Shown piece after piece: positions 4,676-29,632 of a stretch of DNA of 64,000 nucleotides. The DNA lies in contig JAHDXR010000015.1 of assembly GCA_023384105.1 (NCBI GenBank), forward strand, positions 1 to 64,000, in the 5' to 3' direction. The first letter of the stretch is position 1; every line of letters starts with the position of its first letter. The stretch comes from Hyphomonadaceae bacterium (GTDB lineage: Bacteria; Pseudomonadota; Alphaproteobacteria; Caulobacterales; Aquidulcibacteraceae). The notes under the pieces are model-generated. The model did no database searches. It worked only from the letters and a program-made list of their open reading frames with translations, and was not told the DNA's origin. The position numbers and the translations under genes are program-made.

Positions 4676-5887
4676 TTAGCGATCCAATCCGGGCGGCAGT
4701 TTCAACGCTTTCGACATTTGCCGCGCCGGGTCAGCGACGCCGCGACCAAGATCCTGCGTACGCGAGCGCACCAGCGCCTTGCGGATGTCGAGATGGAGCT
4801 CCATCGCCTTGAGGCGGCCCTGCCATTCTGGGGCGAACTGAAAGATGTTGCGTTCAACTTCCGTAGCGAGGCCAAGGCGTTTGAGTTCCTGCGCCCGCGC
4901 TTTCAGCGCATCGGTCATTTCCGGCGACCGGTCCGGCGCCTGCAGGTGGGCAAGGCGGATGCGGCCATACTCATCAAGCTGGCCTTCGATCATGCGGTCG
5001 AGCCGGCTTGGACGATGCGCGCGCGCTTCCCGCTCCAGCGCAAGGCGGGCGTCGTCTCTGCCGCGGGGACCAAGGCGTTCGGTGGCGATGTCCTGAGCGG
5101 CCGAGCGGAAGCCATGGCTCACATACTCGCGCGGGATGACAAGATCGCGTCCATCCTCGTGCCGGCCGCGCAGAATGATGTGCGTGTGCGGGTTGTCCGT
5201 GTCCCAATGATCGACCGCGATCCAGGTCAGCCGGGTTCCGAGTGCGATTTCCGCCCGCCGCATCACTTCGCGGGTGTAGCTCCTGAGATCGCCGAGCCTG
5301 CCGCCGTTCTCCGCCGAGAGGATGATCCGGAAGTGGCGCCGGTCCTCGCGCGCCCAGGCGCCAGCACGCGCGCCGCCGTCCACGCTGTTATCCAACGCAT
5401 CGTAGAAGACGGATCGTTCAGCGCCGCGCTGAAGGTAGCGCGCATGCGCATTCGCTGGCGCCTCGGCCTCGCGCTCGCGGTTGACCGGCGTGTCCTCGCC
5501 CGGCAACGGCGCTGACGGCGCTTTGGCTGCTGCGTCGCGCGCCACATAGCGGGCGTGGGCGCCGAGCGCTGCGCCGCCGCCTCCACCGTGGCCGAAATAA
5601 TGGACCTTCACGATCGCGCGTTGCCGCGGATCGAACTTGAACTTGCCCGCTTTGCCAAAGCCCTTGGCGGCTTTGCGCGATGAGCCGATGCGCTGCTGCA
5701 GTTGAGAAGACAGCGCCGGCGTAGCGCCTCCGCGACCGCGTCCTTCGTGGCGGCCGGTGAGACTTTCCGCATCGATGGGTCGCGCGATGCGTAAGCGCGA
5801 GCCTGGCGAGAACGTCTCACCGCGCATGGCGTCGCGCAGCAATTTACTGAAACGAAAGGCGGGTGCGGTGATTGTTGTCGAGGTCAT
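4676..5887 (-). CDS. VirD2-type relaxase (MOBP-like), short form
   Basis: DNA nickase that would start conjugative transfer at oriT. The protein (403 residues from ATG 5887; GTG 5908 is an alternative) has an N-terminal region with KVHYFGHGGGG and GAHARYVARD, then the metal-binding motif HTHIILRG (His234, His236) preceded by DHWDTDNP, typical of VirD2/DUF3363-type relaxases. These usually continue for another 200 residues or more. Here the reading frame ends soon after the LDIRKAL segment, so the C-terminal DUF3363 part is short or missing. An inverted repeat lies directly upstream and may be its target. Confidence 0.85.
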   Translation of the reverse strand: MTSTTITAPAFRFSKLLRDAMRGETFSPGSRLRIARPIDAESLTGRHEGRGRGGATPALSSQLQQRIGSSRKAAKGFGKAGKFKFDPRQRAIVKVHYFGHGGGGGAALGAHARYVARDAAAKAPSAPLPGEDTPVNREREAEAPANAHARYLQRGAERSVFYDALDNSVDGGARAGAWAREDRRHFRIILSAENGGRLGDLRSYTREVMRRAEIALGTRLTWIAVDHWDTDNPHTHIILRGRHEDGRDLVIPREYVSHGFRSAAQDIATERLGPRGRDDARLALEREARAHRPSRLDRMIEGQLDEYGRIRLAHLQAPDRSPEMTDALKARAQELKRLGLATEVERNIFQFAPEWQGRLKAMELHLDIRKALVRSRTQDLGRGVADPARQMSKALKLPPGLDR

Positions 5888-5904
5888 CGGTGCGATGTTC
5901 GCCA

Positions 5905-5963
5905 GCACTGTGCGCGCACCGTGCGGCGCACTGTGCGATTGTGCTCTGCACGGTGCGTTTGCG
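5905..5963. other. Inverted and direct repeats upstream of relaxase, oriT candidate
   Basis: CGCACCGTGC (5915-5924) and GCACGGTGCG (5948-5957) are perfect 10-base inverted arms around a 23-base centre. GCACTGTGCG occurs twice as a direct repeat (5905-5914 and 5928-5937). The segment lies between the relaxase start and the next gene, where oriT often sits. The 16-base stretch GCACGGTGCGTTTGCG (5948-5963) recurs with one change at 22147-22162, upstream of traG. The function is inferred from position and structure only. Confidence 0.45.
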
Positions 5964-6566: not shown

Positions 6567-6887
6567 GGGCCGGTAGGTTCTGTCTCCGTGTTCGCCGGTT
6601 CAAGCGCTCACGCCTCTGACGGTCTCCGACAGGCCAATGGGGCGGGTGGGCGGGGTCTTGCGACAGGGATGGAAGCCGGATGGCCGAGACCCGCGGAGCG
6701 AGGCTCGGTGGCGTAGCCACGACAGCCCGGCCGGCGGCGGAGCCGGCGGGTCGCCCAAACTCATCCACAACTTATCCACAGCCTGCTGGCGCGTGATCTC
6801 CCGCACGGGCCAGCGGACCGCAAGCGACCCATGGCGCGCGCGTCAGGGCGGGTGGGTGGGTTTCTCTTGCCGCAGGATTCTCAGGCG
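6567..6887. other. Non-coding, GC-rich stretch with hairpins and DnaA-box-like sites
   Basis: No gene is supported here. The stretch contains a perfect hairpin GTGGC-GTA-GCCAC (6708-6720), a second GC-rich stem (CCGGC/GCCGG, about 6730-6746) and two DnaA-box-like nonamers, TCATCCACA (6761-6769) and TTATCCACA (6772-6780); the second matches the consensus exactly. This could be a replication or control region of the circular form of the element. Confidence 0.4.
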
Positions 6888-8083: not shown

Positions 8084-11000
8084 GTGCCGAAAGGGTGGAG
8101 GGGGTGGGAAAGGCCCGTTACACAGTTTGTAGCGGCGACAGATTCGCGGGGGGTGGCTGCTTTGGGCAGGACATTGCGAGATCTGCTCATTTCGTATCGA
8201 GAACGAGCAAGTTCCGAGCGCGAGAAGGGCGACTATTTCGAGCGGCTGGTCCGCATCTGGCTGCAGCATGCGCCAACCCAGCAGGGTCAGTTTCTGCGGG
8301 TTCTGTCCTATGCAGACTGGGCCGCCGCGAACCGCATTTCACAGCAGGACACCGGCATCGATCTGGTGGCGCAGCTCGCCGACGCTCCCGACGATTGGTG
8401 CGCCGTGCAGTGCAAGTTCTACGCATCCGGCCATCGCATCCAAAAAGCGGACATCGACAGCTTCTTTACGGCGTCGGGTAAACGTCCTTTCACGCGTCGA
8501 CTGATCGTCGACAGCACTGGCGCGTCTTGGAGTGAGCACGCCGCTGAAGCGCTGGTTGGTCAAACCATTCCCTGCAACCGCATCGGCCTTGCCGACTTGG
8601 AAGAGAGCGGCATCGATTGGGACGCCTTCGCGCAGAGCGGCGAAGTCCACGTCACTAAGAAAGCGCCGAGACAACACCAACTTGAGGCTCTGAAGGCTGT
8701 CCAAGAGGGTTTGAGCGAAGCCGATCGCGGCAAGCTCATCATGGCGTGCGGCACAGGCAAGACCTACACCGCGCTTCAGATCGCGCAGGCCATGGCAGGA
8801 CGCGGCGGGCGCGTGCTCTTCCTGGTGCCGTCGCTTTCGCTGATGTCGCAATCGATCCGCGAATGGTCCGTCGACACAGCGATCAACCTTCGCTCCTTTG
8901 CGGTGTGTTCCGACGTGCAGGTCGGCGTGCGCAAGGCCAAGCAAGACGATCTTGCGGACATCAGCGCCACCGATCTCGAAATCCCGGCGACCACGCTTGC
9001 CAACGTGCTCGCCGCGAAGGCCAGCAAGCCCGATCCGGAGCGCATGACGGTCGTGTTCTCGACCTATCATTCGATTCAGGCGGTGGCGGATGCGCAGACG
9101 AAGTTCGGCTTGCCCGAATTCGATCTCATCATTTGCGACGAGGCGCACCGCACGACAGGCGCCACGCTCGCGGGCGAGGAGGAGAGCGCTTTCGTCAAGG
9201 TCCACGACTCCAATTTCATAAAGGGCAAGAAGCGCCTCTATATGACAGCGACGCCGCGCATCTTCGGTGAAGCGGTGCAGCAGGTGGCTGACGAGAAGGG
9301 CGCCACGCTCGCGTCCATGGACGACGAGGGCCTCTACGGCCAGGAACTCTTCACCCGCAATTTCTCATGGGCGGTCCAGAACGGCCTGCTGACGGACTAT
9401 AAGGTCATCGTGCTGGCGGTGGACGAGGCGTCGCCCGATGTGCAGCGCCTTCTCCGCGACGGTGGGAACGAACTCAAGCTCGACGACGCCACGCGCATTG
9501 TTGGTTGCTACAAGGCGCTGACGAAAACTGATCTCAAGCCCGACACCGACGCTGATCCAGCGCCGATGCGCCGTGCGCTGGCCTTCTGCAGAACGATCAA
9601 GGCTTCGCAGCTCTTCGAGGAACAGTTTGCGCATGTCTCGGAAGAATGGCGCGCAGGCCTAGAACCCGACCGTGAGGCGGCGCTTCCGCCGCTTATACCG
9701 CATGTGCGTCACGTCGATGGGAGCTTCAGCGCCAATATGCGCAATGAGCGCCTAGGCTGGCTGAAGGCAGACGCGGGCGCGGATCAGTGCCGCATTCTCA
9801 CCAATGCGCGTTGTCTGTCGGAAGGCGTGGACGTTCCGGCGCTCGACGCCATCCTCTTCCTGCATCCGCGCAAATCGCAGATCGATGTCGTCCAGTCGGT
9901 CGGTCGCGTCATGCGCCGCGCCGAAGGCAAGAAGATGGGCTATGTCATCTTGCCAATCGGCGTGCCTGCCGGCATGGCGCCCGAGCAGGCGCTGAATGAC
10001 AATGAGCGTTACAAGGTCGTGTGGCAGATCCTGAACGCGCTGCGCGCGCATGACGATCGGCTCGACGCAACCATCAATAAGATCGATCTTGGCGTCGATC
10101 CCGGCGACCGCATTGAGATCATCGCCGTTTCCAATGACTTCCCAATCCGTGCCAAGGCCACGAAGGCCAATCTCGACATTGGCGGCGGGACCGCTGTTGA
10201 TGGCGACGACTTCTCGACGTCAACGCCACGCGCGCCGGGCGAGCCAACACAGCTTGGCTTCGACTTTCCGGAATACGCCAAGGCGATCATGGCGAAGATC
10301 GTCAAGAAGTGCGGCTCTCGGACTTATTGGGAAAATTGGGCAGGCGATGTCGCTCGCATTGCCGAAATTCACATCACGCGCATCAAGGCAGCGGTAGAAT
10401 GCTCTGGCTCGGAAGAGAAGGCGGCGTTCGACGCATTTCTGGAAGAAATCAGGGACGATCTGAACGATTCCATCACTGCCGACGAAGCCATTGAGATGTT
10501 GGCGCAGCATCTCATCACCAAGCCCGTGTTCGATGCGCTGTTCGAAGGCTACGCTTTCGCCGCCAACAATCCAGTCAGCCGCGCTCTCGACCAAGTGCTC
10601 TCGGTGCTCGAGCGTCAGAACCTGGAGAAGGAAACCGAGAGCCTCGAAAAGTTTTACAACAGCGTCCGTATGCGCGCGGCGGGCATCGCCAGCGCAACGG
10701 CCAAGCAGAAGATCGTCGTCGAGCTCTATGACACGTTTTTCAAGACGGCGTTCCCGCGGCTCGCCCAGCGCCTCGGCATTGTTTACACGCCGGTCGAAGT
10801 CGTCGACTTCATCATCAAGTCGGTGGACGAGGTGCTGCGCGAGGAGTTCGGGCAGAGCCTTTCATCCGAAGGCGTCCACATCATCGATCCGTTTGTCGGC
10901 ACGGGCACGTTCATCACGCGGCTGCTGCAATCGGGCCTAATCAAACCAGAGGATCTGCCGCGAAAGTTCTCATCTGAAATCCACGCCAACGAGATCGTGC

Positions 11001-13060
11001 TGCTCGCCTATTACATCGCGGCGATCAACATCGAGGCGACCTATCACGAGCTCACTGGCGAATACGCGCCGTTCCCTGGCATCTGCCTCACCGACACCTT
11101 CCAGCTTTATGAGAAGGAAGATCTCATCTCCGGCATGATGGCGGACAATTCTAGCCGGCGGAAACGCCAGAGGGCGCTTCCGATAAAAGTCATTTTTGGA
11201 AACCCGCCCTATTCAGTCGGGCAGGGAGACGCGAACGCCAACAATCAGAATGTGGTGTATCCGGGTCTCCACGCGCGCATCGCTGAAACTTATGCGAGGC
11301 GTTCCTCCGCGACCAACAAGAACGCCCTTTATGACAGCTACATCCGCGCGATCCGTTGGGGTTCGGATCGCTTGAAGGATACCGGCGGTGTGCTTGCCTT
11401 TGTGACCAATGGCGGTTGGGTTGATGCAATTACAGCCGATGGTATGCGCAAGTGCCTTGCCGAGGAATGCTCGACCATCGATGTGTTTCATTTGCGCGGA
11501 AATCAGCGCACGCAAGGTGAGCAGTCGCGGCGCGAGGGCGGAAAAATCTTTGGGCAGGGCAGTAGAGCGCCCGTCGCAATCACCGTGCTTACTATCAACA
11601 GCGCCAAACCCGGCCCGGCGCATATTCGATTTCACGATATTGGGGATTTCCTCACGCGAGAGCAAAAGCTCGCAAAGGTTACGTCGTTTGGCTCAATGAG
11701 CGGCATTACCGCTAATCGGGGTTGGACCGTGATCGCTCCGGATGAGCACGGGGACTGGCTCGCGCAACGGGACAAGAGTTTTGAGGAGTTCGTTGCTATT
11801 GGCGACGAAGGCTCCGCGCTCTTCGGCAATTATTCTATGGGCATCAAAACTCAGAGGGACGCATGGTGCGTAAACTCATCTCGAGGTGAGCTGCTGCATA
11901 ACGTCGGATTGCTCGTGAGAACCTATGAGCAAGAACGCGAGCGCTTCGCGGCACTGGGCAAGACCTTCACGACAGCGGCGGCTCGTGATGAGTTCGTGGA
12001 CGATTTTGTGATCTCGAACCCAACACAAATCAGTTGGACCCACGCTCTTAAGGGGGATGTGGCGGCATGCAAGCCTTTGGCGTTGGTGCCGGAGAAGGCG
12101 ATGCCCGCAATGTATCGGCCATTCAATCGGGCGTGGCTCTATTACGATCGTCGGCTGAACGAGCGCGTGTATCAGATGCCGCGCATCTTCCCTTCAGGCT
12201 CGCATGAAAATCTAGTGATAGGGCTGACTGGGGCTTCGAACAGGGGTGAGTTCACCACGCTAATGACCTCAGCGCTACCGAGTCTACACATGGCCGACTC
12301 CAACGGGGCGCAATACTTTCCGCGCTATCTCTACGAAGACGTCGCGGCTGGGGCAGGGTTGTTCGCGAGTGACGAAGCACGGCAGGAACGCCGTGACGCC
12401 ATCACCGACATCGGGCTGAAGCACTTCACAGACGCCTACCCAGGTGAGACCATAGCCAAAGACGATCTCTTCTATTTCGTCTATGGAATCCTCCATTCGC
12501 CCGACTATCGTGTACGCTACGCTGATAATCTCCGTCGCCAGCTTCCGCGCATGCCGATCCTGAAGCGCGCGGAGGATTTCTGGGCCTTCGTTGATGCCGG
12601 CCGCAAGCTCGGCGATCTTCACGTCAGCTATGAAGCGGTCGAGCCTTATCCGGTGGCTATCAGGGAAGGCGACCTGCGCCTCGCCAATATCGACGATCCG
12701 GTCTCGTATTTCCGCGTCGAGAAGATGAAGTTCGCAGGCAAGCGCCCGAAGCTCGACAAGACCACCGTGATCTACAATCACCGGATCACGATCACGAACA
12801 TTCCGCTCGCCGCGTATGAGTATGTCGTCAACGGCAAGCCAGCGCTTGAATGGGTGATGGAGCGGCAATGTGTCTCCACCGATCCCGCCAGCGGCATTGT
12901 CAACGACGCTAACGCCTACGCCAACGAAACCGTCGGCGACCCACGATACCCGTTCGATCTCTTCTGCCGGATCATCAACGTCAGCCTTGAGACAATGAAG
13001 ATCGTCAAAGCGCTGCCGACGCTGGATATTCGCGAGAATGCCGAGGCGACGCCAGCTTAG
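8084..13060 (+). CDS. Type ISP restriction-modification enzyme, single chain
   Basis: One protein of up to 1658 residues that should both methylate and cut DNA. In order: a PD-(D/E)XK nuclease (Asp93 in GIDLVA, Gln109-Cys-Lys in VQCKFY); an SF2 helicase/translocase with Walker A ACGTGKT (near 222), DEAH box CDEAH (Asp352), YMTATPR, and motif VI SVGRVMRR; an N6-adenine methyltransferase with DPFVGTGTF (Asp935) and NPPY (Asn1040); and a C-terminal target recognition region. This is the LlaGI/LlaBIII architecture. The GTG at 8084 follows AAGGGA, but residues 1-30 look unlike the family, so a start near 8152 is possible. Its stop overlaps that of the convergent DUF6527 gene by four bases. Confidence 0.92.
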   Translation: MPKGWRGWERPVTQFVAATDSRGVAALGRTLRDLLISYRERASSEREKGDYFERLVRIWLQHAPTQQGQFLRVLSYADWAAANRISQQDTGIDLVAQLADAPDDWCAVQCKFYASGHRIQKADIDSFFTASGKRPFTRRLIVDSTGASWSEHAAEALVGQTIPCNRIGLADLEESGIDWDAFAQSGEVHVTKKAPRQHQLEALKAVQEGLSEADRGKLIMACGTGKTYTALQIAQAMAGRGGRVLFLVPSLSLMSQSIREWSVDTAINLRSFAVCSDVQVGVRKAKQDDLADISATDLEIPATTLANVLAAKASKPDPERMTVVFSTYHSIQAVADAQTKFGLPEFDLIICDEAHRTTGATLAGEEESAFVKVHDSNFIKGKKRLYMTATPRIFGEAVQQVADEKGATLASMDDEGLYGQELFTRNFSWAVQNGLLTDYKVIVLAVDEASPDVQRLLRDGGNELKLDDATRIVGCYKALTKTDLKPDTDADPAPMRRALAFCRTIKASQLFEEQFAHVSEEWRAGLEPDREAALPPLIPHVRHVDGSFSANMRNERLGWLKADAGADQCRILTNARCLSEGVDVPALDAILFLHPRKSQIDVVQSVGRVMRRAEGKKMGYVILPIGVPAGMAPEQALNDNERYKVVWQILNALRAHDDRLDATINKIDLGVDPGDRIEIIAVSNDFPIRAKATKANLDIGGGTAVDGDDFSTSTPRAPGEPTQLGFDFPEYAKAIMAKIVKKCGSRTYWENWAGDVARIAEIHITRIKAAVECSGSEEKAAFDAFLEEIRDDLNDSITADEAIEMLAQHLITKPVFDALFEGYAFAANNPVSRALDQVLSVLERQNLEKETESLEKFYNSVRMRAAGIASATAKQKIVVELYDTFFKTAFPRLAQRLGIVYTPVEVVDFIIKSVDEVLREEFGQSLSSEGVHIIDPFVGTGTFITRLLQSGLIKPEDLPRKFSSEIHANEIVLLAYYIAAINIEATYHELTGEYAPFPGICLTDTFQLYEKEDLISGMMADNSSRRKRQRALPIKVIFGNPPYSVGQGDANANNQNVVYPGLHARIAETYARRSSATNKNALYDSYIRAIRWGSDRLKDTGGVLAFVTNGGWVDAITADGMRKCLAEECSTIDVFHLRGNQRTQGEQSRREGGKIFGQGSRAPVAITVLTINSAKPGPAHIRFHDIGDFLTREQKLAKVTSFGSMSGITANRGWTVIAPDEHGDWLAQRDKSFEEFVAIGDEGSALFGNYSMGIKTQRDAWCVNSSRGELLHNVGLLVRTYEQERERFAALGKTFTTAAARDEFVDDFVISNPTQISWTHALKGDVAACKPLALVPEKAMPAMYRPFNRAWLYYDRRLNERVYQMPRIFPSGSHENLVIGLTGASNRGEFTTLMTSALPSLHMADSNGAQYFPRYLYEDVAAGAGLFASDEARQERRDAITDIGLKHFTDAYPGETIAKDDLFYFVYGILHSPDYRVRYADNLRRQLPRMPILKRAEDFWAFVDAGRKLGDLHVSYEAVEPYPVAIREGDLRLANIDDPVSYFRVEKMKFAGKRPKLDKTTVIYNHRITITNIPLAAYEYVVNGKPALEWVMERQCVSTDPASGIVNDANAYANETVGDPRYPFDLFCRIINVSLETMKIVKALPTLDIRENAEATPA

Positions 13061-13458
13061 CCGCCGAAGACCTTGCGAAGCCAATTCCAGAGGCGGCGCC
13101 AGAAACCGCGCTCGCGCTCTTGCGCGGCGTAGTGGTCACGGCGGCGCTGCTCCTCCGCGTTGCGCCCGGCGAGGACTTGGGCCTCGGACCACCCTTTGGC
13201 CCAATGAATCTGGCCGTCACTGATCACATAGTGCGACCGGCAGGGCAGTTGCCAATTGCCGATAGAAGGGCGGAGGCTCGGGCGTCCGCCGCGCTCTGTG
13301 AAGCTCCATTCGGCTGGACCAAGCGGGGTGACGACTTTTGCGCCGCATCCGCACGCGCACAGATGCGCTGCGACGGCATATTCCAGTGAGACGTAGAGAA
13401 CGCCCGGTGCAAGATCGCGCGGGACGTAGGTGACATGTTGGAGCTTCAGTTCGTTCAC
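13057..13458 (-). CDS. DUF6527 family protein of a ubiquitin-like operon
   Basis: A 133-residue protein with a Cys-rich knot HLCACGCGAKVV (about residues 32-43), then PSIGNW and CRSHY, which suggests zinc binding, and a basic, tryptophan-rich tail. DUF6527 proteins occur with multiubiquitin-type Ubl proteins and ThiF/E1 enzymes in bacterial ubiquitin-like operons. A role in processing the Ubl tail has been suggested for such proteins, but I cannot confirm it here. It overlaps the E1 gene by four bases and is the last gene of the operon. Its stop codon overlaps that of the restriction enzyme on the other strand. Confidence 0.78.
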   Translation of the reverse strand: MNELKLQHVTYVPRDLAPGVLYVSLEYAVAAHLCACGCGAKVVTPLGPAEWSFTERGGRPSLRPSIGNWQLPCRSHYVISDGQIHWAKGWSEAQVLAGRNAEEQRRRDHYAAQERERGFWRRLWNWLRKVFGG

Positions 13459-14627
13459 TCGAAAGCCTCTGTGAACAGCTTCAGGCCGCCAAGTTCAAAG
13501 AGCATGTGATGCGCCCCGTTGTCATTGGCATAGAAGCCGCGAATTTGTTTGTAGCGAATGACCGCCAGGGTCGCGTTCAAAGCGTTCAGTTCGGCGATTT
13601 GGATGTTCTGACGATAGACGTCGTTCGGATCATCCGACATTTCCGCAAGGCCCATTTGTTGGACCTTTCGGCCGTCGGCTGTCGAGTAGTAGGTGGCGCG
13701 CATCATGCCGGTGAGGGCGCCCGCATTGCGGGTAAGGCCCATCCCGACATCGATGAACGGAATGCCCAGGCCCAGCAGAAGCTCGAATATTTCGGCGCGT
13801 GCCGAGCCTTTGTCCACGCACACGAACGCGAACGTCACGCCCTCGAAATCGGCGGCGCAGGAGCGGTCAATGTACTTGCGGACGAGGTGTACGCCTTCGC
13901 GAAAGTTCTCATAGCGCGACCTGTAAACGTCTGCTTTCCCCTGGCTCAGCTCTTTCTCTTCGAGCCGTCCTGGAGATCGATAGGCATTGTGGACATGATA
14001 GGCGTCGCCGTCGAACCCGCGGATCTGCTTGACGGGCGTTTTGACGAAAAAATCTAGGACGTAGGCGCCAGTTCCGCCGAGGCCGATGATCGCGACGACT
14101 TCGTTCTTAAAACGCGCGGCCAAATCTCCAATCTCGGCCCGGCTGGTCAGCGTGTCATGAAACTTGAAGACCGAGCCTTTCACCGCTTCTGTGTCGACGC
14201 GGAAGGTTAGCGGATTGGCGCCGTGGAGCTCGATCGCAGGGCCGGAAATCATGCCGACGTAATGTTCAATCTTATCGAAGAAGTCTGTGAACCCGCTGCT
14301 GGGCTTGTTGGAAAATGTGCGCTGCACGACCACGTCCGAGTGGGCGAGGGTTAGGCTCGTCGGGCCTCCGGCCAGATTAGGGATCGGCTGACCGTTCAGC
14401 CCATAGGGCGGTGAGCCGGCGAAGAACACTTGATGGTCTTGCTGCTTGACGCGGACCTTGTCGATGAATTCGAGCTTCGTCACGAAGGCGCCGATCTGCA
14501 GAGCTTTCTGGCTGTCGAGATAGGGAATGTCGCGCACGACGAGATGCGCGCTGTCGAACCGCAGCGCGTATCCCTTTTCCATCAGCCGACGGATGTCGTC
14601 GTTATGATTGGCCAGTTCGATTAACAC
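13455..14627 (-). CDS. ThiF/E1-like Ubl-activating enzyme with DUF6791-like N-terminus
   Basis: A 390-residue E1 homologue that would adenylate the C-terminus of the Ubl encoded upstream. The first 170 residues form a separate domain (DUF6791-like; includes FFAGSPPYGLNGQPIP). The Rossmann adenylation domain begins at IIGLGGTGAYVLD (Gly182), with GFDGDAYHVHNAYRSPG supplying the Asp, Asn and Arg expected around ATP. Only two cysteines are seen (in RSCAADF and FVCVDKG), neither in the usual catalytic position, so the transfer chemistry may not use a classical E1 thioester. The GTG start lies 26 bases inside the Ubl gene, so the two are coupled. No separate E2 gene is present. Confidence 0.85.
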   Translation of the reverse strand: MLIELANHNDDIRRLMEKGYALRFDSAHLVVRDIPYLDSQKALQIGAFVTKLEFIDKVRVKQQDHQVFFAGSPPYGLNGQPIPNLAGGPTSLTLAHSDVVVQRTFSNKPSSGFTDFFDKIEHYVGMISGPAIELHGANPLTFRVDTEAVKGSVFKFHDTLTSRAEIGDLAARFKNEVVAIIGLGGTGAYVLDFFVKTPVKQIRGFDGDAYHVHNAYRSPGRLEEKELSQGKADVYRSRYENFREGVHLVRKYIDRSCAADFEGVTFAFVCVDKGSARAEIFELLLGLGIPFIDVGMGLTRNAGALTGMMRATYYSTADGRKVQQMGLAEMSDDPNDVYRQNIQIAELNALNATLAVIRYKQIRGFYANDNGAHHMLFELGGLKLFTEAFE

Positions 14628-14865
14628 GGAAGACCATTCCCTCTTTTGCTTTGACCGTGCCGCCAGGCGCCAAAATGCCTTCCGGCTTGTCGCCGTGGCC
14701 GCGCGTGAAAGTGACCGAGTAGGTGATTTCCGGGTGCTGCGCGTAATCGGGATAGGCCAGCATCACGACTTCCGCGTAGGTCAGAATTTCCTTCTTCGGA
14801 ACCTCGTGGGGCGTGCCGTCGACGATGATGGTTATGGTCTTGTCCTTGTCTTCCTGCTTGCTCAT
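14602..14865 (-). CDS. Multiubiquitin-family Ubl, single beta-grasp domain
   Basis: An 87-residue ubiquitin-like protein: a charged N-terminus (SKQEDKDK), then a beta-grasp pattern with strands ITIIVDGTPHEV and YSVTFTRG, the helix KKEILTYAEVVMLAYP, and the final strand MVFRVNRTGQS. It matches the multiubiquitin domain family but has one copy only. The tail ends Thr-Gly-Gln-Ser, without the Gly-Gly of ubiquitin; removal of Gln-Ser would leave a terminal glycine. GGAGG precedes the ATG by seven bases. It lies between the Cas2-like gene and the E1 gene, and should be the modifier that the E1 activates. Confidence 0.82.
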   Translation of the reverse strand: MSKQEDKDKTITIIVDGTPHEVPKKEILTYAEVVMLAYPDYAQHPEITYSVTFTRGHGDKPEGILAPGGTVKAKEGMVFRVNRTGQS

Positions 14866-14899: not shown

Positions 14900-15178
14900 T
14901 TAGGCGGCCATCTTCACTTGGCGCGCGTTGATCCACTCCCAGGCCTTTTGCGGAAGCCAGCCTTGGTATTCGCGCGTCACGCCGATCACGAGGACGAAGT
15001 CGCCGGTATCGACGTGCGGGGCCAGGCGCGCCCAGACCCCATTGGCGTCTAAAGACGAATCAACCAACCAGGTTGATCCGAGAAAATGCCACCACGAGCC
15101 GCAGCTCTTGATGGCCTCATAAAGTCCCTCGTAGTTTTGGCCGGGGCGCTTCAGGTCGTAGTTGATCGCGTAGATCAA
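14900..15178 (-). CDS. SinR-family Cas2-fold protein
   Basis: A 92-residue protein, from a TTG at 15178, that begins LIYAINYDLKRPGQNY and contains YEAIKSCGSWWHFLGSTW and DFVLVIGVTREYQGWLPQ. This is the pattern of the so-called SinR-family proteins, which have the ferredoxin-like fold of Cas2 and VapD. The TTG was chosen because homologues start right at this beta strand; the longer frame upstream would run through the promoter and across the divergent gene. It is the first gene of the ubiquitin-like operon, 34 bases before the Ubl. No nuclease activity is proven for the family; Cas2-like RNA or DNA binding is a guess. Confidence 0.72.
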   Translation of the reverse strand: MIYAINYDLKRPGQNYEGLYEAIKSCGSWWHFLGSTWLVDSSLDANGVWARLAPHVDTGDFVLVIGVTREYQGWLPQKAWEWINARQVKMAA

Positions 15179-15215
15179 TGTCGGTCTCCCGTCCGGCCAA
15201 CGAGGCCGATACCTA

Positions 15216-15245
15216 CCTATGCGGACGAGGTGTCGGCTGCGGACA
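15216..15245 (-). promoter_or_regulatory. Bipartite promoter-like element of the ubiquitin-like operon
   Basis: Read on the minus strand this is TGTCCGC (15245-15239), 13 bases, TCCGCATAGG (15225-15216). The last block ends 37 bases before the TTG start of the Cas2-like gene. The same two blocks with the same spacing occur in mirror image at 15257-15286 in front of the sigma-factor gene. Two blocks with fixed spacing fit the -35 and -10 elements of an alternative sigma factor. Confidence 0.65.
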
Positions 15246-15256
15246 ATGGCGGCCCA

Positions 15257-15286
15257 TGTCCGCGGTTCACGATCCTTCCGCATAGG
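15257..15286 (+). promoter_or_regulatory. Bipartite promoter-like element of the sigma-ImmA operon
   Basis: TGTCCGC (15257-15263), 13 bases, TCCGCATAGG (15277-15286), reading toward the sigma-factor gene whose GTG is at 15306. All 17 block bases equal those of the element facing the ubiquitin-like operon, while the 13-base spacers differ, as expected for a selected promoter and not for a simple duplication. Autoregulation by the sigma factor is the simplest reading; a dyad-binding repressor is the alternative. Confidence 0.65.
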
Positions 15287-15305
15287 AGTCCGAGGAGATG
15301 ACCGT

Positions 15306-15890
15306 GTGAGTTTGAGCCAGGCCGCCACCACACGCAGCCGGGATGAGGTCGCCGCCGCGATCCGCGCTTTCACGCCTGCCGATTGGGCCAGGTTGAAGCG
15401 CGTCGCGGCGAAGTATGCGTTTGCGCGACCTATTAGCCCCGAGGATCTGATCCAGGAGGCGTTTATGCGGGCGCTCGATACGCGCGTCTGCCCCTCCGAC
15501 GTAGACGTGGTGAAATTCCTGGCGGAGATCATCCGCAGCGTAGCCGATGGCGAGGCCGAGAAGGTTGAGCACAAGGCGAAGCTCGTGCCGATCGCCAATA
15601 CCGGTGGCGCTGATGACTTGGTCTATGACATCGCCGATGAGGCGGCCAATGCGGAGGCGCGTCTGATCGAGGCGGAGCATACCGAGCGCTACGTCGCTGC
15701 TCATGCCGGTCTCGTTGCGCTCTTCGATGATGATCCGACAGCTCAACTCATCTTGGAAGGAATGATGGACGATATGGCGGGCGAGGAACTGCGCGAGCTG
15801 ACGGGCCTGGACAAGATGGCGTATGACAGCAAACGCAAAGCCATCCGCCGCAAAATTGCCAAGCACTATCCCAATGGATGGAAGCCATGA
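15306..15890 (+). CDS. Sigma-70 family (ECF-like) RNA polymerase sigma factor
   Basis: A 194-residue protein with a sigma region 2-like segment (WARLKRVAAKYAFARP, then SPEDLIQEAFMRAL) and a C-terminal region 4-like helix-turn-helix (DDMAGEELRELTGLDKMAY, then SKRKAIRRKIAKHYP). The linker between them is unusually acidic. GTG 15306 is chosen because GAGGAG (15292-15297) precedes it by eight bases and it fits the domain start. It is the first of three tightly packed genes ending with an ImmA/IrrE protease. The mirrored bipartite elements in front of it and the ubiquitin-like operon suggest that it transcribes both. Confidence 0.78.
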   Translation: MSLSQAATTRSRDEVAAAIRAFTPADWARLKRVAAKYAFARPISPEDLIQEAFMRALDTRVCPSDVDVVKFLAEIIRSVADGEAEKVEHKAKLVPIANTGGADDLVYDIADEAANAEARLIEAEHTERYVAAHAGLVALFDDDPTAQLILEGMMDDMAGEELRELTGLDKMAYDSKRKAIRRKIAKHYPNGWKP

Positions 15891-16327
15891 CCGGGAAAGG
15901 CGACAAAGAGCGCATTGCACTGAGCCGATTGGCGAACGCTCTTACAGACGACATCTTGAGTGCGTCGGATGATGACATTCTGGCTGATCTGAGAGAGACG
16001 GGAGAAGATCCCGCCAAGAATGCCGACGACATGAGGGCATTGTTCGAGAAGACGGTCTTGATCGCCAATAAGAAGCGATTGAGCGCAGCGAAGGCTGGCG
16101 CGGCAGCCGTGCGGGAAGTGTTTGCGGCGCCAGTTTCGCCCGCAGTGGATATTGGCGTCGCGAGAGCGCGTCTTCGACAGATCATTGAGGCCCCCGGCAG
16201 AACGCAAAAAGTTACTTTAGCCGCGCGCAAAGAAAGTGAGATGTCTGACTCCGACGTGCTGGGGATGCTCGATGATTTGGTCGAACTCGGCATTCTGTCG
16301 CGACCGAACGACGCCGATAGCGACTGA
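15887..16327 (+). CDS. Hypothetical protein, possible anti-sigma partner
   Basis: A 146-residue, mostly helical, charged, soluble protein with an acidic N-terminal part (DDILSASDDDILADLRETGEDP) and a C-terminal part ending LDDLVELGILSRPNDADSD. I do not recognise a family. ATG 15887 overlaps the sigma-factor stop (ATGA); ATG 15878 is an alternative in the same frame. It is sandwiched between the sigma factor and an ImmA/IrrE metalloprotease, six bases from the latter. By analogy with ImmA/ImmR pairs it could be the protein whose cleavage frees the sigma factor. That is inference. Confidence 0.6.
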   Translation: MTGKGDKERIALSRLANALTDDILSASDDDILADLRETGEDPAKNADDMRALFEKTVLIANKKRLSAAKAGAAAVREVFAAPVSPAVDIGVARARLRQIIEAPGRTQKVTLAARKESEMSDSDVLGMLDDLVELGILSRPNDADSD

Positions 16328-16332
16328 TCGCG

Positions 16333-17088
16333 ATGTCACCTGCGGAGCGATTGCTGCAAGAATTGGGCGTAACCGACCCCAAGGAAATCGACTTGGAGGC
16401 GATAGCATTCCACGTCAAAGCGCGGGTCCGCTACCGCATGTTAGAAGGGTGCGAGGCGCGTATTGTCGGCAACGATCGCGAGGCGATCATCACAGTGAAC
16501 TCCACCAGCTCGGCGCGGCGCCAGAGATTTTCCATCGCACACGAATTGGGCCATTGGCACCATGACCGAGGGAAGTGTCTTGCGTGTCGCTTGGAGGATT
16601 ACCGTCCGAGTGAAACGCGCTCGCCGGAGCGGGTCGCTGACGGCTACGCCGCCGACTTATTGATGCCGTACTATCTCTTCCGGCCGCTTGCTCGCGAGAT
16701 CGGCAAGCCGAATTTCAAAACAGTGGCGGCGTTGGCTGAGACGTTCAAAACAAGCAAGGTCGCTACAGCCATTCGGTTGGTGGAGAGCAATCAGGCGCCT
16801 ACGATCCTCGTTTGTCACGGGCCAAATGGTCGGAAGTGGTTCACGCGCGCGCAGAGCGTGCCGAAGAAGTGGTTTCCGCAGGATGGTTTGAATAGCGACA
16901 GTTACGCCTTCGGGATTCAGTTTGGAAGCGGCTCGGATGATGCGACGCCGCACAAAATCGGCGCTGATGCGTGGTTTGATCGCCGCGATGCAGAGCGGTT
17001 TGAGGTGTTCGAGCAAACAATACGAATGAGCACCAACGAGACGTTGACCCTGCTGCAGATTAGCGATGCAAAGATGCTCGAAGACTGA
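16333..17088 (+). CDS. ImmA/IrrE family metallo-endopeptidase
   Basis: A 251-residue zinc peptidase. The HEXXH motif is HELGH (His70, Glu71, His74) in SIAHELGHWHHDRG, followed by a cluster (KCLACRLEDY) and ADGYAADLLMPYYLFRP, which supplies the third ligand region. The C-terminal half is a separate domain of about 110 residues that may sense a signal. Family members cleave repressors in mobile elements (ImmA) or in the DNA-damage response (IrrE/PprI). It is the last gene of the sigma operon, so its target is probably a neighbour in that operon. Confidence 0.87.
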   Translation: MSPAERLLQELGVTDPKEIDLEAIAFHVKARVRYRMLEGCEARIVGNDREAIITVNSTSSARRQRFSIAHELGHWHHDRGKCLACRLEDYRPSETRSPERVADGYAADLLMPYYLFRPLAREIGKPNFKTVAALAETFKTSKVATAIRLVESNQAPTILVCHGPNGRKWFTRAQSVPKKWFPQDGLNSDSYAFGIQFGSGSDDATPHKIGADAWFDRRDAERFEVFEQTIRMSTNETLTLLQISDAKMLED

Positions 17089-22395: not shown

Positions 22396-24396
22396 ATGCG
22401 GCGGATTTGGTTCGCATTGCTGGGTTCGGCGCTGATCGCGCTCACCGGGCTTTGGCTCGCCACCGCCTTCATTGCCGATGTGTTCTCGCATCAGCGCGCG
22501 CTTGGCGCGCCGCTTCTGATGCTCGGCGAAACGCCACTCTATGCGCCCTGGGCAATTCTAGCCTGGACCAGCGCGCATGCGGAGGACTTTCCGAAGCCCT
22601 TCTCGGTGGCGCGCTTTATCGTGTTCGGCGCCTTCGTGCTCGCGCTCTTGCCGGTGGTTGTCGCCGCGCGTGGCAAGCTCGGCGTCAAGCCGTTCGGCGC
22701 CAAAGCGTGGGGCCTGTCCGACGATGTGAAGGCCGCCGGGCTCTTTGCCGATACCGGCACGGTGCTCGGAAAGTTCGGGCGCGAGATTCTTTGCTTCGAT
22801 GGGCCTGAGCATCAGCTTCTCATAGGCGCGTCTCGCTCCGGCAAGGGCAGAGGCCAGGTCGTGCCCACACTTCTGGCGTGGCCGCATTCCGCACTCGTGC
22901 TCGATGTCAAAGGCGAACTCGCCGACGGCGATGCGCGCCATCGCTTTCCGGGTACGGCGGGCTTTCGCGAAAGCCTGGGGCCGGTGCTGCGCCTCGCGCC
23001 CACGCGGTTGGATTCAGCCTCGTTCAATCCGCTTCACGAAGTGCGCAAGGGGCCGAACGAAGTCCGTGACGTCCAGAACATTGTTGAGATCCTCGTCGAT
23101 CCGCAGGGCGATGGCCGACATCAGGATTTCTGGGACCGTTCAGCCAAGACGATCCTCGTCGGCGTCATTCTGCATGTGCTCTATGCCGAACCGCCGGAGC
23201 GCAAGACGCTGGCCGTGGTGCGCGAGAAGTTACGCGACCTCGATGCGACCGCGCAGCAGATGAAATCGACCCTGCATCGGCTCAATTCCACGACTAACCA
23301 ACCTGAAGTGCATCCCGAAGTGTTGCACGCGGCGGAATCGTTTCTAGCCGGCGAGGAGCGTCTGCAGAGCGGGGTGAAGGCGACGGCGGAGAGTTTCTTC
23401 GGCCTGTTCGCCGATGAAATCGTCGCACGCAACACAGCGACCTCCGACTTTCGCATCGGCGACCTGATGTGCGGACCGAAGCCGGTCACACTTTATTTGC
23501 AGCCGCCGCCATCGGACGCGCTGCGGCTCATGCCGTTCCTGCGCCTTGTCATCAATCAGTTTGCCCGCGCGCTGATGGAGCATCAGGAGCAGGACGCGCA
23601 AGGGCGCGCCAAGCGCCACCGCCTCATCTTGGTGCTCGACGAGTTTCCCATGCTCGGCCGCATGCCCTTCTTCGAAACGATGATGGGCGCGATGGCGGGC
23701 TATGGCCTGAAGGCCTTCTTGGTCACGCAAAGCCTCAACCATCTGACCAAGGCTTATGGCCGTGAGAATGTCATTCTCGACAACGTCCATGTCGTCACCG
23801 CGTTTTCCGCCGCCGACAACGACACCGCCAAGCGCATTGCAGAGATGGCCGGTGAAGTCTGGGAATTGCGTGAGAGCGAGACGCACACGCGGCCGAGATC
23901 AATCCTCGGATGGCGCAAGGGGTCGACGACGATCCGCGAGGAGCGCCGGCCGCTGCTTCTGCCTGCCGATGTCCGGTCATTGCCGCGCGATGAAGAACTT
24001 ATCTTCGTCGCCGGCGCCAAACCGATCCGCGCGAAGAAGCTCAAATTCGACCAGGAGGGCGTCTTTGTGGAGCGCCTTCGTCCCGCATCGAACCAGCGTC
24101 CAACGCTTACGACGACACACGATTGGGCAAGTGTGCGTCCGCTGGGGATCATTCCGCAGGTGATCAAAGCGCCGAAGGCCAAGCCCGCCATGTCGCAGCC
24201 GCTCGCGGCGCAACCCGATCTCTTTGCGCAGGCCGCCACGCGGCAAACCAAAATCTCCGACGCCGCCATGGCCGCATTTCGTGACGCGGACGGAGTGGCG
24301 TTGCCGCATCCGGCGAGCGTCGCGCCGCCGCCTGCGGCGGCCGAGGCGCCTCCCGCCGAAACGCCGCGGCGTCGGCGACAGGCCAAGGGGATCTGA
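22396..24396 (+). CDS. traG: VirD4/TraG-type coupling protein
   Basis: A 666-residue inner-membrane ATPase that links the relaxosome to the secretion channel. Two N-terminal membrane segments (about residues 5-27 and 75-92) are followed by Walker A IGASRSGKGRGQ (near 141), FWDRSAKTILVG, and Walker B LVLDEFPMLGRM. The C-terminal 80 residues are Pro/Ala-rich and end in a basic tail, likely a substrate-contact or disordered region. It opens the run traG-copG-trbBCDEJLFGI, all on + with gaps of a few bases, typical of P-type conjugative islands. Confidence 0.95.
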   Translation: MRRIWFALLGSALIALTGLWLATAFIADVFSHQRALGAPLLMLGETPLYAPWAILAWTSAHAEDFPKPFSVARFIVFGAFVLALLPVVVAARGKLGVKPFGAKAWGLSDDVKAAGLFADTGTVLGKFGREILCFDGPEHQLLIGASRSGKGRGQVVPTLLAWPHSALVLDVKGELADGDARHRFPGTAGFRESLGPVLRLAPTRLDSASFNPLHEVRKGPNEVRDVQNIVEILVDPQGDGRHQDFWDRSAKTILVGVILHVLYAEPPERKTLAVVREKLRDLDATAQQMKSTLHRLNSTTNQPEVHPEVLHAAESFLAGEERLQSGVKATAESFFGLFADEIVARNTATSDFRIGDLMCGPKPVTLYLQPPPSDALRLMPFLRLVINQFARALMEHQEQDAQGRAKRHRLILVLDEFPMLGRMPFFETMMGAMAGYGLKAFLVTQSLNHLTKAYGRENVILDNVHVVTAFSAADNDTAKRIAEMAGEVWELRESETHTRPRSILGWRKGSTTIREERRPLLLPADVRSLPRDEELIFVAGAKPIRAKKLKFDQEGVFVERLRPASNQRPTLTTTHDWASVRPLGIIPQVIKAPKAKPAMSQPLAAQPDLFAQAATRQTKISDAAMAAFRDADGVALPHPASVAPPPAAAEAPPAETPRRRRQAKGI

Positions 24397-24399
24397 GCG

Positions 24400-24852
24400 A
24401 TGGCCGCGCGCAAGCTCACTGTCTATCTGCCGCCAAACCTCGACGCCAAGGTGCGTAAGGTGGCGCGCGACCAGCACCGCTCGGAATCGAGCATCGTTCT
24501 TGAGGCGCTGAAAGCGCGGCTTGAGCGCGGCGAGACCACCAACGCCGTCATCGAGGAAAGCGCGCGCCGTCAGCTCTCCCGCGTCGATGCGCGGCTGGAG
24601 AAAGTGATCGGCGAAGGTCTCATTCTCAAGGAAATCGTTCTGCTCTTTGTTCGTGTCTGGCTGGAGCACAACCCGCCGATTGACGAGCATCTTGAAGAAG
24701 ACGCCGCCGCCAGCGCCGAGGCGCGCTTCGAACGCTTCCTCGATTTCGTTGCGCAGGCGTTGGCGCCTGGAAAATCACTCGGCGCGGCGTTTTCGCTGGA
24801 GTCCGCAGAGGCTGTAGCCGTCGTTGACCACAATGGGGAGGCGAGGGCGTGA
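24400..24852 (+). CDS. CopG-type ribbon-helix-helix protein of the trb operon
   Basis: A 150-residue protein whose first 45 residues form a ribbon-helix-helix (ARKLTVYLPPNLDAKVRKVA, then SESSIVLEALKARLERG). The rest is helical and acidic with a hydrophobic stretch (LILKEIVLLFVRVWL). A gene of this type regularly stands between traG and trbB in trb-type ICEs, where it probably regulates the operon or assists the coupling protein. Its stop overlaps the GTG start of trbB. Confidence 0.82.
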   Translation: MAARKLTVYLPPNLDAKVRKVARDQHRSESSIVLEALKARLERGETTNAVIEESARRQLSRVDARLEKVIGEGLILKEIVLLFVRVWLEHNPPIDEHLEEDAAASAEARFERFLDFVAQALAPGKSLGAAFSLESAEAVAVVDHNGEARA

Positions 24853-25790
24853 GCGCTGGCGCCATTCCGCTTGTCACGGCGCGCCGCCGGTCGGCGCTAA
24901 CGCGTGCGCTCGGGCCAGCGATCGCCGAAGCGCTTGACGCGCCGGATGTGGTGGAAGCGCTGATCAATGCGGATGGGCGCCTATGGCTGGACCGGATTGG
25001 CGTGGGTCTCATCGCAACGCCGCACACGCTTTCGCCGAAAGACCGTGAAGCTGCGATCCGTCTGCTCGCGCATGAGGCCGGTGAGATTGTCGGCGAGGCG
25101 CATCCGTCCTTGCAGACGATCCTGCCTGACAGCGCCGCGCGCGTGCAGGCGCTGTTGCCGCCGCTGGTGGACGCGCCCGTGCTTGCGATCCGAAAGCGCC
25201 CGCGCGCTGTCTATACGCTCGCCGATTATGTTGAGGGCGGCATCGCAACGCCTGCTCAAGCGGCAATGCTCGCGAAGGCGGTTGCTGCCAAGCGCAACAT
25301 CATCGTCGCGGGCGGCACCGGCTCGGGCAAGACGACGCTTCTAAATGCGCTTTTGGCGGAAGCGCCGTTTCTGACATCCCGCGTCGTCATCCTCGAAGAC
25401 ACCGCCGAACTGCAATGCGGAAGCCCCAATGCGGTTCAGCTTCTGACCAAGCGCACCGATCCGCCGATCAGCATGCGCGATCTGGTGCAGATGACGCTCC
25501 GGCTCCGCCCGGATCGCATCGTCGTCGGCGAAGTGCGCGACGGCGCAGCGCTTGAAGTCCTCAAAGCGTGGAACACGGGGCATCCGGGCGGGCTGCTGAC
25601 GCTGCATGCCAATTCCGCGACGGATGCGCTGATGCGTCTGGAAGATTTGTGCATGGAAGCGCGCGCAACGCCGCCGAAGCGCCTCATCGCCAGCGCCGTC
25701 GACATCATCGTCTTTATCGCCCGCCGTGAAGGCGGGCGCGTCATCACTGAAATTCTGGAGGCGGACGAGGTCCGGGGAGAGGAAGCATGA
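24849..25790 (+). CDS. trbB: TrbB, VirB11-type secretion ATPase
   Basis: A 313-residue hexameric ATPase that powers pilus assembly on the cytoplasmic face. Walker A is GGTGSGKTTLLNA (about residue 156), then EDTAELQC, the RPDRIVVGEVRDGAALE box and GHPGGLLTLHANS with its His box. The GTG start overlaps the stop of the CopG-type gene and the end overlaps trbC, so translation is coupled. All signature residues look intact. Confidence 0.95.
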   Translation: MSAGAIPLVTARRRSALTRALGPAIAEALDAPDVVEALINADGRLWLDRIGVGLIATPHTLSPKDREAAIRLLAHEAGEIVGEAHPSLQTILPDSAARVQALLPPLVDAPVLAIRKRPRAVYTLADYVEGGIATPAQAAMLAKAVAAKRNIIVAGGTGSGKTTLLNALLAEAPFLTSRVVILEDTAELQCGSPNAVQLLTKRTDPPISMRDLVQMTLRLRPDRIVVGEVRDGAALEVLKAWNTGHPGGLLTLHANSATDALMRLEDLCMEARATPPKRLIASAVDIIVFIARREGGRVITEILEADEVRGEEA

Positions 25791-26101
25791 AGTCGGTACG
25801 TCTTAAACGCATCGCGGTAATCGCTGTTGCAATGCTCGCGCTGGCCGCGCCGGCCTATGCCGCCGGCTCAGGCATGCCCTGGGAAGGGCCGCTCGAACAG
25901 ATCGTCGATTCCATCACCGGCCCTGTGGCGCGCGCCGCCGCGGTCATCGCTATCGTCATCGCCGGCGTCACCATCATCTTTTCCGAAGGCGGGGGTGGGG
26001 TCAGGAAGCTCGCCTTCGTGGGCCTTGGCATCGCGATCATGTTCGCGGCGGTGTCGTTCTTCCTCGATTTCTTTGGCTTTGCCGGCGGCGCGGTGATTTG
26101 A
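25787..26101 (+). CDS. trbC: TrbC, pilin subunit (VirB2-like)
   Basis: A 104-residue prepilin. It has a signal peptide ending near ALAAPAYA, a short loop (GSGMPWEGPLEQI), and two hydrophobic helices (ARAAAVIAIVIAGVTIIF and KLAFVGLGIAIMFAAVSFF). This is the VirB2/TrbC pattern. The TraF-type peptidase at 6078 is the likely maturation enzyme. It is coupled to trbB by overlap. Confidence 0.92.
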   Translation: MKSVRLKRIAVIAVAMLALAAPAYAAGSGMPWEGPLEQIVDSITGPVARAAAVIAIVIAGVTIIFSEGGGGVRKLAFVGLGIAIMFAAVSFFLDFFGFAGGAVI

Positions 26102-26106
26102 ACCCC

Positions 26107-26382
26107 ATGTCGCTGCTCGCCGATTCAGAGCCCGAGGGCTATCGCATCCCGCTTCGGACATCGCTCACGCGCCCGATCCTGATGGGCGGCGTGCCGCGCA
26201 ACTTCGCCATCCTCAACGCAACGGTGGGCGCCGCGATCGGCTTTGGTCTGCAACAGCCGTTCATCGCATTTCCGCTATGGGCTGTGCTTCAGGGCGCCGC
26301 CGCCTGGGCTGCCGCGCGCGATCCCTGGTTTCTCGACACCTGGCCGCGCCACATGGCCAAGCCCCACTATTTCGGATCGTGA
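26107..26382 (+). CDS. trbD: TrbD, VirB3-like membrane protein
   Basis: A 91-residue inner-membrane protein with EGYRIPLRTSLTRPILMGG, then one long hydrophobic region (NFAILNATVGAAIGFGL, then AFPLWAVLQGAAAW) and the tail HMAKPHYF, matching TrbD/VirB3. ATG 26107 is chosen; a TTG at 26098 overlaps the trbC stop and is possible. It works with the TrbE ATPase in early pilus assembly. Confidence 0.9.
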   Translation: MSLLADSEPEGYRIPLRTSLTRPILMGGVPRNFAILNATVGAAIGFGLQQPFIAFPLWAVLQGAAAWAAARDPWFLDTWPRHMAKPHYFGS

Positions 26383-26394
26383 GGGCGCGTTACG

Positions 26395-28887: not shown

Positions 28888-28896
28888 GAGGGGCGT

Positions 28897-29616
28897 ATGA
28901 GACGGAGAACGCGAACCGGAATGGCCGCCTTGGCGCTGTGCCTCATGCTTGGCGTGCAGCAGACGCCGCCTGCAGCAGCGCAAATCCCGGTCATTGATCC
29001 CGCAAATCTTGCGCAGTCGATCACGCAGGTGACGCACATGGTGCAGCAATTGCGCAACCAAGTGCAGCAGATCGAGCAAGCCAGCGCCATGCTGCGTCAA
29101 AATCCGCTGCAGCTCTCGCCCGAGCTTTCTGCATCGATCTCCGAGGCGCGGGCGCTGTTCAACAGCGTCCAAGGCGTCGCTTTCGAGGCGCGCCAGCTCG
29201 GCGAGGATTTGCGCACGCTCTATCCGGAGACCTGGGAGAACTTCAATCTCGATGAGGTTCTAGGTCAGTCGGACCGGTGGATGGCGGAAAGTCGCCGCAG
29301 TCTTGAGCGTGCGATGGCGGCCGAAGCGCGCGCCGCAGCTTCGATCGAACGCACGCAAGGCGCCATCGATCGGGCGATGCAGTCATCAAGCGGCGCCGAA
29401 GGCCAGACCGGCGCCATCCAGGCCGGCAACCAGCTCTTGGGCATACAGGCCTCGCAGCTTGCCGAGATTCACGCATTGCTGATTGCGCAGGGCCGCGCGC
29501 TCGAAACGGAGCGCCTGGAGCGGATCGCCCGCGAAGAGCGCGCCGGCGAGATTCGGCGCCGCGCGTTCCCGACCGAGACGTCCGGCGATTTGACGCCCGC
29601 GCGCACGGCGTTCTGA
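28897..29616 (+). CDS. trbJ: TrbJ, VirB5-like minor pilin
   Basis: A 239-residue exported protein. The signal peptide ends near PPAAAQIPV and is followed by a long helical body with Gln-rich heptads (TQVTHMVQQLRNQVQQIEQA) typical of TrbJ/VirB5. It probably sits at the pilus tip. It begins nine bases after trbE. The usual entry-exclusion gene trbK is not found between trbJ and trbL. Confidence 0.9.
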   Translation: MRRRTRTGMAALALCLMLGVQQTPPAAAQIPVIDPANLAQSITQVTHMVQQLRNQVQQIEQASAMLRQNPLQLSPELSASISEARALFNSVQGVAFEARQLGEDLRTLYPETWENFNLDEVLGQSDRWMAESRRSLERAMAAEARAAASIERTQGAIDRAMQSSSGAEGQTGAIQAGNQLLGIQASQLAEIHALLIAQGRALETERLERIAREERAGEIRRRAFPTETSGDLTPARTAF

Positions 29617-29632
29617 GCGAGGGCGCCGCGCG

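Follow-up and report, generated by a model that had tools for sequence, protein, structure and literature searches.

Mirrored promoter-like sites between a Bub-type operon and a predicted sigma factor module that also faces other immune-type genes

How costly immune operons stay silent and are then switched on fast is an open question, and a divergent gap of 127 bases in the 64-kb window (the whole stretch of DNA analysed here) bears on it. Its two bounding start codons are the TTG of a small gene (first base 15178) and the GTG of a sigma factor-like gene (15306). On one side, the divergent genes are, by their domain matches, a Bub-type operon: like other Bub operons, they include Multi_ubiq, E1 (DUF6791-ThiF) and DUF6527 genes, a ubiquitin-like protein and an E1 thus being found together, and neither an E2 nor a JAB protein was found among the three scanned genes. 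On the other side lies a trio of genes for the sigma factor, a middle protein and a CapP-like protease (Table 1). As the original prediction had stated, the motif TGTCCGC-N13-TCCGCATAGG is present exactly and in mirror image on both strands of this gap, once toward each operon, with all block bases equal (17/17), spacers that differ, and 11 bases (15246-15256) between the two copies. The GCATAG of the sigma-facing copy ends 20 bases 5' of the sigma GTG start. Do these blocks form a switch that is common to both operons, and if so, which protein reads them?

Table 1. Genes and sites on either side of the divergent gap
Feature	Position	Strand	Remarks
DUF6527 protein	13057..13458	-	Pfam E=1.6e-25
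E1-like protein (DUF6791 + ThiF)	13455..14627	-	Domain matches
Ubiquitin-like protein (Multi_ubiq)	14602..14865	-	Pfam E=5.7e-16
Small 92-aa protein, first gene of the divergent operon	14900..15178	-	'Cas2-like' in the original prediction
Promoter-like site toward the ubiquitin-like operon	15216..15245	-	Blocks and spacing equal to the sigma-facing site
Promoter-like site toward the sigma gene	15257..15286	+	-35-like TGTCCG, 17-base spacer, -10-like GCATAG
ECF-like sigma factor, 194 aa, GTG start	15306..15890	+	Region 2, low-confidence linker, region 4
Middle protein, predicted helical, proposed anti-sigma	15887..16327	+	Start overlaps the sigma stop codon; CapH-like C-terminal T-x-A-A-R tail
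ImmA/IrrE-type (M78) protease, CapP-like	16333..17088	+	HELGH motif

The motif is rare in its surroundings. With up to three mismatches allowed, it has three matches in the 64-kb window; 100 shuffles averaged 0.31, and three were never reached (0/100). When the 185 bases that precede the sigma gene were dinucleotide-shuffled, 0/200 versions equalled the mirrored score of the window. Beyond the two copies, the 17-base form is absent from the 3.67-Mb genome at fewer than three mismatches. The shorter 13-base form, TGTCCG-N17-GCATAGG, occurs exactly only as these two copies, while three genomic sites are found at one mismatch and 93 at up to two; a reversed control gives 63 under the latter setting, and a few additional genuine sites in the genome are therefore possible.

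The sigma gene product misses the curated cut-offs (Pfam Sigma70_r2, E=2.8e-4, 21 bits versus 24; TIGR02937, 15.7 versus 42.9) and is for this reason designated ECF-like. The profile of its family nonetheless matches ECF SigH in the PDB (3.8e-5), and its fold model (md4305b133160) has helices at 12-92 and 110-187 and a low-confidence linker at 90-113, which corresponds to the ECF layout of regions 2 and 4, with a linker between them and region 3 absent. When this model was compared with known folds, the best 50 rows were all sigma chains by title, with a top Z of 8.3 that the tool grades as middling; the best Foldseek E value was 0.011. Among the 29 family members, 11 match Sigma70 region 2 at E<=0.01 and none matches the region 4 models. 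The site with fixed -35/-10 spacing that lies 5' of the sigma gene is in addition a sequence feature expected of ECF factors, its activity being predicted. Of note, the gene was annotated as 'hypothetical protein' in 13 of 18 annotated plasmid loci, and as sigma-70 family in the other 5, which is why it is readily overlooked.

The protease is assigned more firmly, as an ImmA/IrrE-type zinc protease of the CapP kind (Pfam Peptidase_M78, 2.2e-17; PADLOC capP, 1.2e-63; CapP structure 7t5t in the PDB, 2.2e-4). The middle protein is perhaps an anti-sigma factor with a CapH-like tail; a T-T-A-F-R sequence is found at a similar place in the CapH proteins of loci L045, L054 and L055, and its R alone is kept in L056-L058. 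A solved fold for this protein was sought and no significant match obtained (best profile E 0.18, best Foldseek E 1.1, VIA-align Z 3.6); many of the weak Foldseek rows, at E>=1.8, are beta' chains of RNA polymerase. Kinship of its family with CapH, as judged by hhalign against six CapH proteins, is likewise unsupported (probability 1.8%).

The reading that we favour, and in which we have moderate confidence, is that the mirrored blocks are divergent promoters of the adjacent ECF-like sigma factor, that the middle protein restrains this factor, and that the CapP-like protease, once activated, cuts the middle protein so that both operons are turned on. One promoter would drive the sigma-middle-CapP operon itself, thereby creating positive feedback, and the other the immune operon, here the Bub-type ubiquitin-like one. 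In a resting cell, the middle protein would keep sigma inactive; the protease would be activated, probably by ssDNA produced when phages infect the cell or its DNA is damaged, as for CapP and PprI, and would then cut the middle protein, perhaps within its conserved A-[AF]-R tail, thereby freeing sigma to turn on both operons together. Sequence comparison shows the trio with its paired, co-varying sites, the spread of cargo and the conservation of the protease motif, while promoter activity, the anti-sigma role, cleavage, the ssDNA signal and an immune function of the Bub operon are predicted. We infer by analogy that the middle protein is the CapP target and that its cleavage frees sigma. According to the respective papers, ssDNA-activated CapP cleaves CapH (PMC13373217), PprI likewise cleaves DdrO, with an arginine of the cleavage loop being important (PMC13373217, PMC10904395), and the Calp protease cuts an anti-sigma factor, thereby releasing the sigma factor (PMC12751052).

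Related loci were collected by tblastn of the sigma factor and the protease against plasmids, by one genome-contig scan and by one class survey, so that the trio set was retrieved by likeness to sigma or CapP; the loci retrieved span alpha-, beta- and gammaproteobacteria. From the plasmid records, 11 of 17 sigma matches were taken and ten of 61 CapP matches added (H114-H116, H119, H120, H123, H125-H128), the weaker ones from H129 downward being left out. The genome-contig scan gave at least 11 loci, of which 10 are in the final set, and four of the nine E1 relatives with >=57% identity were also taken. In the class survey, where up to ten candidates were scored per genome, the middle protein was found in 2 of 385 genomes, the window's own included. 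Profile matches to sigma, middle protein and CapP occur together in 33 loci, with the window's own copy (L031) excluded, L032 and its longer version L044 counted as one, and L019 and L033 left out for having no CapP; 28 remain after removal of near-duplicates (L022, L027, L030, L036 and L041). A sigma match never came without middle protein and CapP matches, except in L019 (which has sigma alone) and L033 (which lacks CapP). The latter is the sigma relative found in viral contigs, and it has a partial middle match and no site. In the 32 trio loci examined, the protease always keeps HEXXH (32/32), 31/32 middle proteins carry the A[AF]R tail, and the sigma and middle genes overlap by 4 bases in 29/32 and by 11-14 bases in 3/32, with starts set by profile position.

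Paired -35/-10-like sites, one per direction, are found in 26 of the 28 non-redundant loci (25 with anchored sites, plus L034). The original prediction had named relatives without the paired blocks as evidence against it; a clean pair is absent in L039, where the agreement is chiefly in the -10 part (12/15), and in L043, where TGTCCA sites lie 102 bases apart (11/15). Site letters are not the same in every clade, yet within a locus both copies shift in step: TGTCCG/GCATAG is seen in the window and L009, TTCTGA/GCATAG on both sides of L014, TGTCCG/GCCTAA on both sides of L035, and TGTCGG with GCAGAC or GCAAAC on both sides of L037. When the window's own motif was scored in 13 trio loci, nine reached at least 10/12 on both sides, L034 and L036 did so on one side only, and L039 and L043 on neither (8-9). 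By comparison, seven control gaps that lack the sigma gene and carry CapH/CapP or other regulators reached 7-9/12 at best, which is the level of random 140-mers. Sites placed in pairs, facing outward and co-varying, with controls at chance level, support the original proposal that the adjacent sigma factor would recognise both.

Across loci, a locus's own left and right parts match with a mean of 13.29 versus 11.33 (sd 0.20) between loci, a value attained in 0/20,000 permutations, and left-right similarity between loci drops with sigma divergence, from 15.5/23 letters at <50% protein distance to 11.4-11.6 at >65%. Anchored sites give 16.32 within versus 11.87 between loci, a contrast that tilts toward the pattern because these anchors were picked by eye from motif listings and the pair search imposes equal spacing; some of them, for example in L025 and L028, have loose -10 blocks. 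The shuffle and permutation tests are independent of the eye-read anchors, the permutation test using region lengths set by hand. In single-locus shuffles, the mirrored score of 22 of 33 loci was equalled by at most 7/200, and that of the other 11 was not above the shuffles (L012, L016, L017, L025, L027, L028, L029, L034, L036, L039 and L043), L034 and L036 having their left copies beyond the 185-base region. Mantel tests did not single out sigma, with rho values of 0.19 for the -35 versus sigma region 4 (31/1000), 0.10 for the -35 versus the whole sigma (217/1000), 0.39 for the -10 versus sigma and 0.41 for the -10 versus CapP. Both sides of L042 have sites, yet no annotated divergent gene lies near on the left.

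A different explanation, which we regard as unlikely, is that the blocks form an operator dyad and that the middle protein, as a diverged CapH repressor, binds it, with CapP cleaving this repressor and the 'sigma' being secondary. Inverted paired sites are indeed frequent among repressors, CapP is the partner in both cases, and CapH/CapP pairs occupy the same position at sister loci, such as Rhizobium L045, where an HTH+ImmA pair (PADLOC capH, 8.6e-28; capP, 7.2e-62) adjoins a Bub operon. The middle family also bears a weak likeness to the capH profile (17/29 members at E<=0.01, best 5.8e-8), and since these PADLOC matches span the HTH part of that profile as well, a diverged repressor is possible. 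The window's own middle protein matches capH at 2e-4, versus 8.6e-28 for that of L045. However, it contains no Pfam domain, HTH included, whereas the L045 CapH matches HTH_3 at 6.6e-15. Moreover, the two copies lie anywhere from 6 to 30 bases apart in the loci with anchored sites (25) and 178 bases apart in L034, where both copies were found, while the direction of the sites and their -35/-10 spacing (16-18 bases in the anchored loci) are conserved. Finally, L019, a Microvirga plasmid whose sigma gene comes with no middle or CapP match, has one 12/12 site (6786-6815) toward sigma and none facing away from it. The variable distance and this single site would suit promoters better than one rigid operator. 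By eye, the frames that follow the L019 sigma gene are a short one overlapping its end and then a methyltransferase-like one.

Somewhat less probable again is that the sites are sigma promoters but that CapP acts on sigma itself, or that the middle protein acts as activator or chaperone, such that proteolysis would be the off signal. Overlapping genes are compatible with any kind of partner protein; the conserved A-[AF]-R tail, on the other hand, resembles that of some CapH proteins, CapH being the published CapP substrate (PMC13373217), and the CalpL/CalpT/CalpS analogy (PMC12751052) also argues against an off-switch. That the sites are promoters of host sigma factors and their pairing incidental is improbable, as their letters shift with the module, on both sides together, in alpha- and betaproteobacterial loci alike, the exact motif is confined to the module in its own genome, and no sigma-70-type site is found in window 15100-15400. 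Chance or a recent DNA duplication is hardly credible: an inverted duplication could yield two exact copies in one gap, but here the blocks agree while the spacers differ, the pattern repeats in distant loci, and the shuffle and permutation tests contradict it.

Sigma promoters with a protease-released sigma factor thus being the favoured reading, what they serve was examined through the genes that the trio faces. The original prediction had asked for trios beside ubiquitin-like operons in relatives, and Bub or E2-containing relatives are indeed faced in 9 of the 28 loci (the window, L016, L017, L025, L026, L029, L034, L037 and L039; L029 was called by eye and L039 from its E2 alone). The special link to ubiquitin-like systems that it proposed did not hold: the trio and its paired sites are not ubiquitin-specific and also face CBASS, Bil, TIR-effector and OLD-like genes. 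A CBASS cyclase is found in 5/28 loci (L010, L015, L021, L038 and L043) and Bil in 2/28 (L023, by BilC at 4e-15 and BilD at 3.8e-19; L044, by eye), while L014 has E1-E2-JAB genes and a patatin, L018 an E2 and a TIR effector, and L024 an OLD/GajA-like ATPase. Immune-type cargo thereby amounts to 19/28. One CBASS-linked trio is carried naturally by plasmid pDE of the laboratory strain Cereibacter sphaeroides 2.4.1, as DQL45_RS22335 (sigma), RS22330 (middle protein) and RS22325 (protease). The remaining nine loci (L009, L011, L012, L013, L020, L028, L035, L040 and L042) could not be called immune and face small DUF2188/DUF3892 genes, HNH_5, Beta_protein, genes outside any known family, or no annotated gene at all. 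DUF2188 genes recurrently adjoin ImmA-type regulators with or without sigma (L011, L013, L040, L041, L046 and L055), and their product may be an effector in immunity or stress that has gone unrecognised. In L028 (3918-4862; no Pfam or PADLOC match) and L030 (5976-6920), the trio faces the gene of a 314-aa protein, a candidate new immune gene.

Conversely, the same cargo is found with other regulators. The four plasmid records taken from the nine closest E1 relatives have no sigma match, and unlike these close Bub relatives, which have HTH/ImmA pairs or other regulators, the Bub operon of the window is flanked by a sigma module. Besides L045, Neorhizobium L048 and Sagittula L046 have ImmA pairs of another type beside Bub (PADLOC PD-Lambda-2_B, 7.9e-109 and 1.5e-28), and Rhizobium L047 has a WYL gene there, with a nuclease gene intervening. 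At other loci, a CapH-type HTH gene followed by ImmA faces DUF2188, patatin, DUF3892 or multiubiquitin genes, or in one case a hypothetical gene. The cargo of CapH/CapP therefore overlaps that of the sigma trio, and the two kinds of regulators seem interchangeable on this comparison.

In the window's clade, the module seems to include the small 92-aa protein that opens the divergent operon. It has no match in Pfam or the PDB, and its identity is 62-71% to the copies of six further trio loci and 28% to that of a seventh (L025); the six carry differing cargo (CBASS, DUF2188, genes of no known family), so that it seems to go with the regulatory trio whatever is faced. The whole module appears to lie within an integrated conjugative element adjoining guaA (window 625-33331). 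From their translations, we take 2534-3796 to be an integrase, 4676-5908 a relaxase-like gene and 22396-33331 Trb-type transfer genes, presumably followed by copper-resistance-like genes; the identities of the SSB, ArdC, ParB and AsnC-type genes were checked by search. Directly past the Bub operon, and facing it, lies a large type IIG restriction-methylation enzyme (PADLOC REase_MTase_IIG, 8084-13060).

Several described systems resemble this module in part. Like CapH+CapP, it has a HEXXH CapP-like protease, a divergent position, overlapping kinds of cargo and a weakly shared C-terminal tail; in contrast to CapH+CapP, it adds a sigma factor, its middle protein has no Pfam HTH, and its paired sites look like sigma promoters. 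The order proposed here, from signal to protease, anti-sigma, sigma and transcription, is that of CalpL/CalpT/CalpS in type III CRISPR, but the Calp protease is reportedly a cA4-activated Lon-SAVED protein and that of the trio is of M78/ImmA type, so that the resemblance is at most one of working. CapK+CapS and CapW, two DNA-damage regulators that are similarly swappable beside Bub, CBASS and other systems, differ in being a kinase with a STAS-wHTH repressor and a WYL repressor, respectively (PMC13373217). According to the same paper, CapW or CapH+CapP adjoins 219/544 Bub operons, and part of this published count may be the sigma trio. The original prediction knew of no ubiquitin-like system with its own sigma factor and ImmA protease. 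Its protease half was anticipated by the CapH+CapP and CapW regulators reported beside Bub (PMC13373217); its sigma half stands, in that no paper among the literature matches listed links a sigma factor to CapP/ImmA control of CBASS, Bub or Bil, an earlier mention being possible. The apparent novelty lies in the output through a sigma factor, where a plain CapH repressor is replaced by a middle protein whose gene overlaps that of sigma.

The trio is probably a damage-triggered on-switch for immunity that is common to different defence systems. A more detailed picture, to which we give an even chance, is that of a domain-swapped switch that combines the CapP-cleavable tail of CapH with an anti-sigma domain, so that an ssDNA-sensing protease would free a self-amplifying sigma factor instead of lifting repression. 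CBASS, Bub, Bil and further operons carried by mobile elements would be served by this portable 'immunity sigma', whose specificity would drift together with that of both promoters, each module thereby staying private to its locus. If true, this would be a switch that amplifies itself through a sigma factor and paired promoters of its own, and it would differ from the repressors known to date. Immune operons could also be located by way of the trio and its mirrored promoter, and orthogonal switches could be built from several of the co-evolved sigma/promoter pairs.
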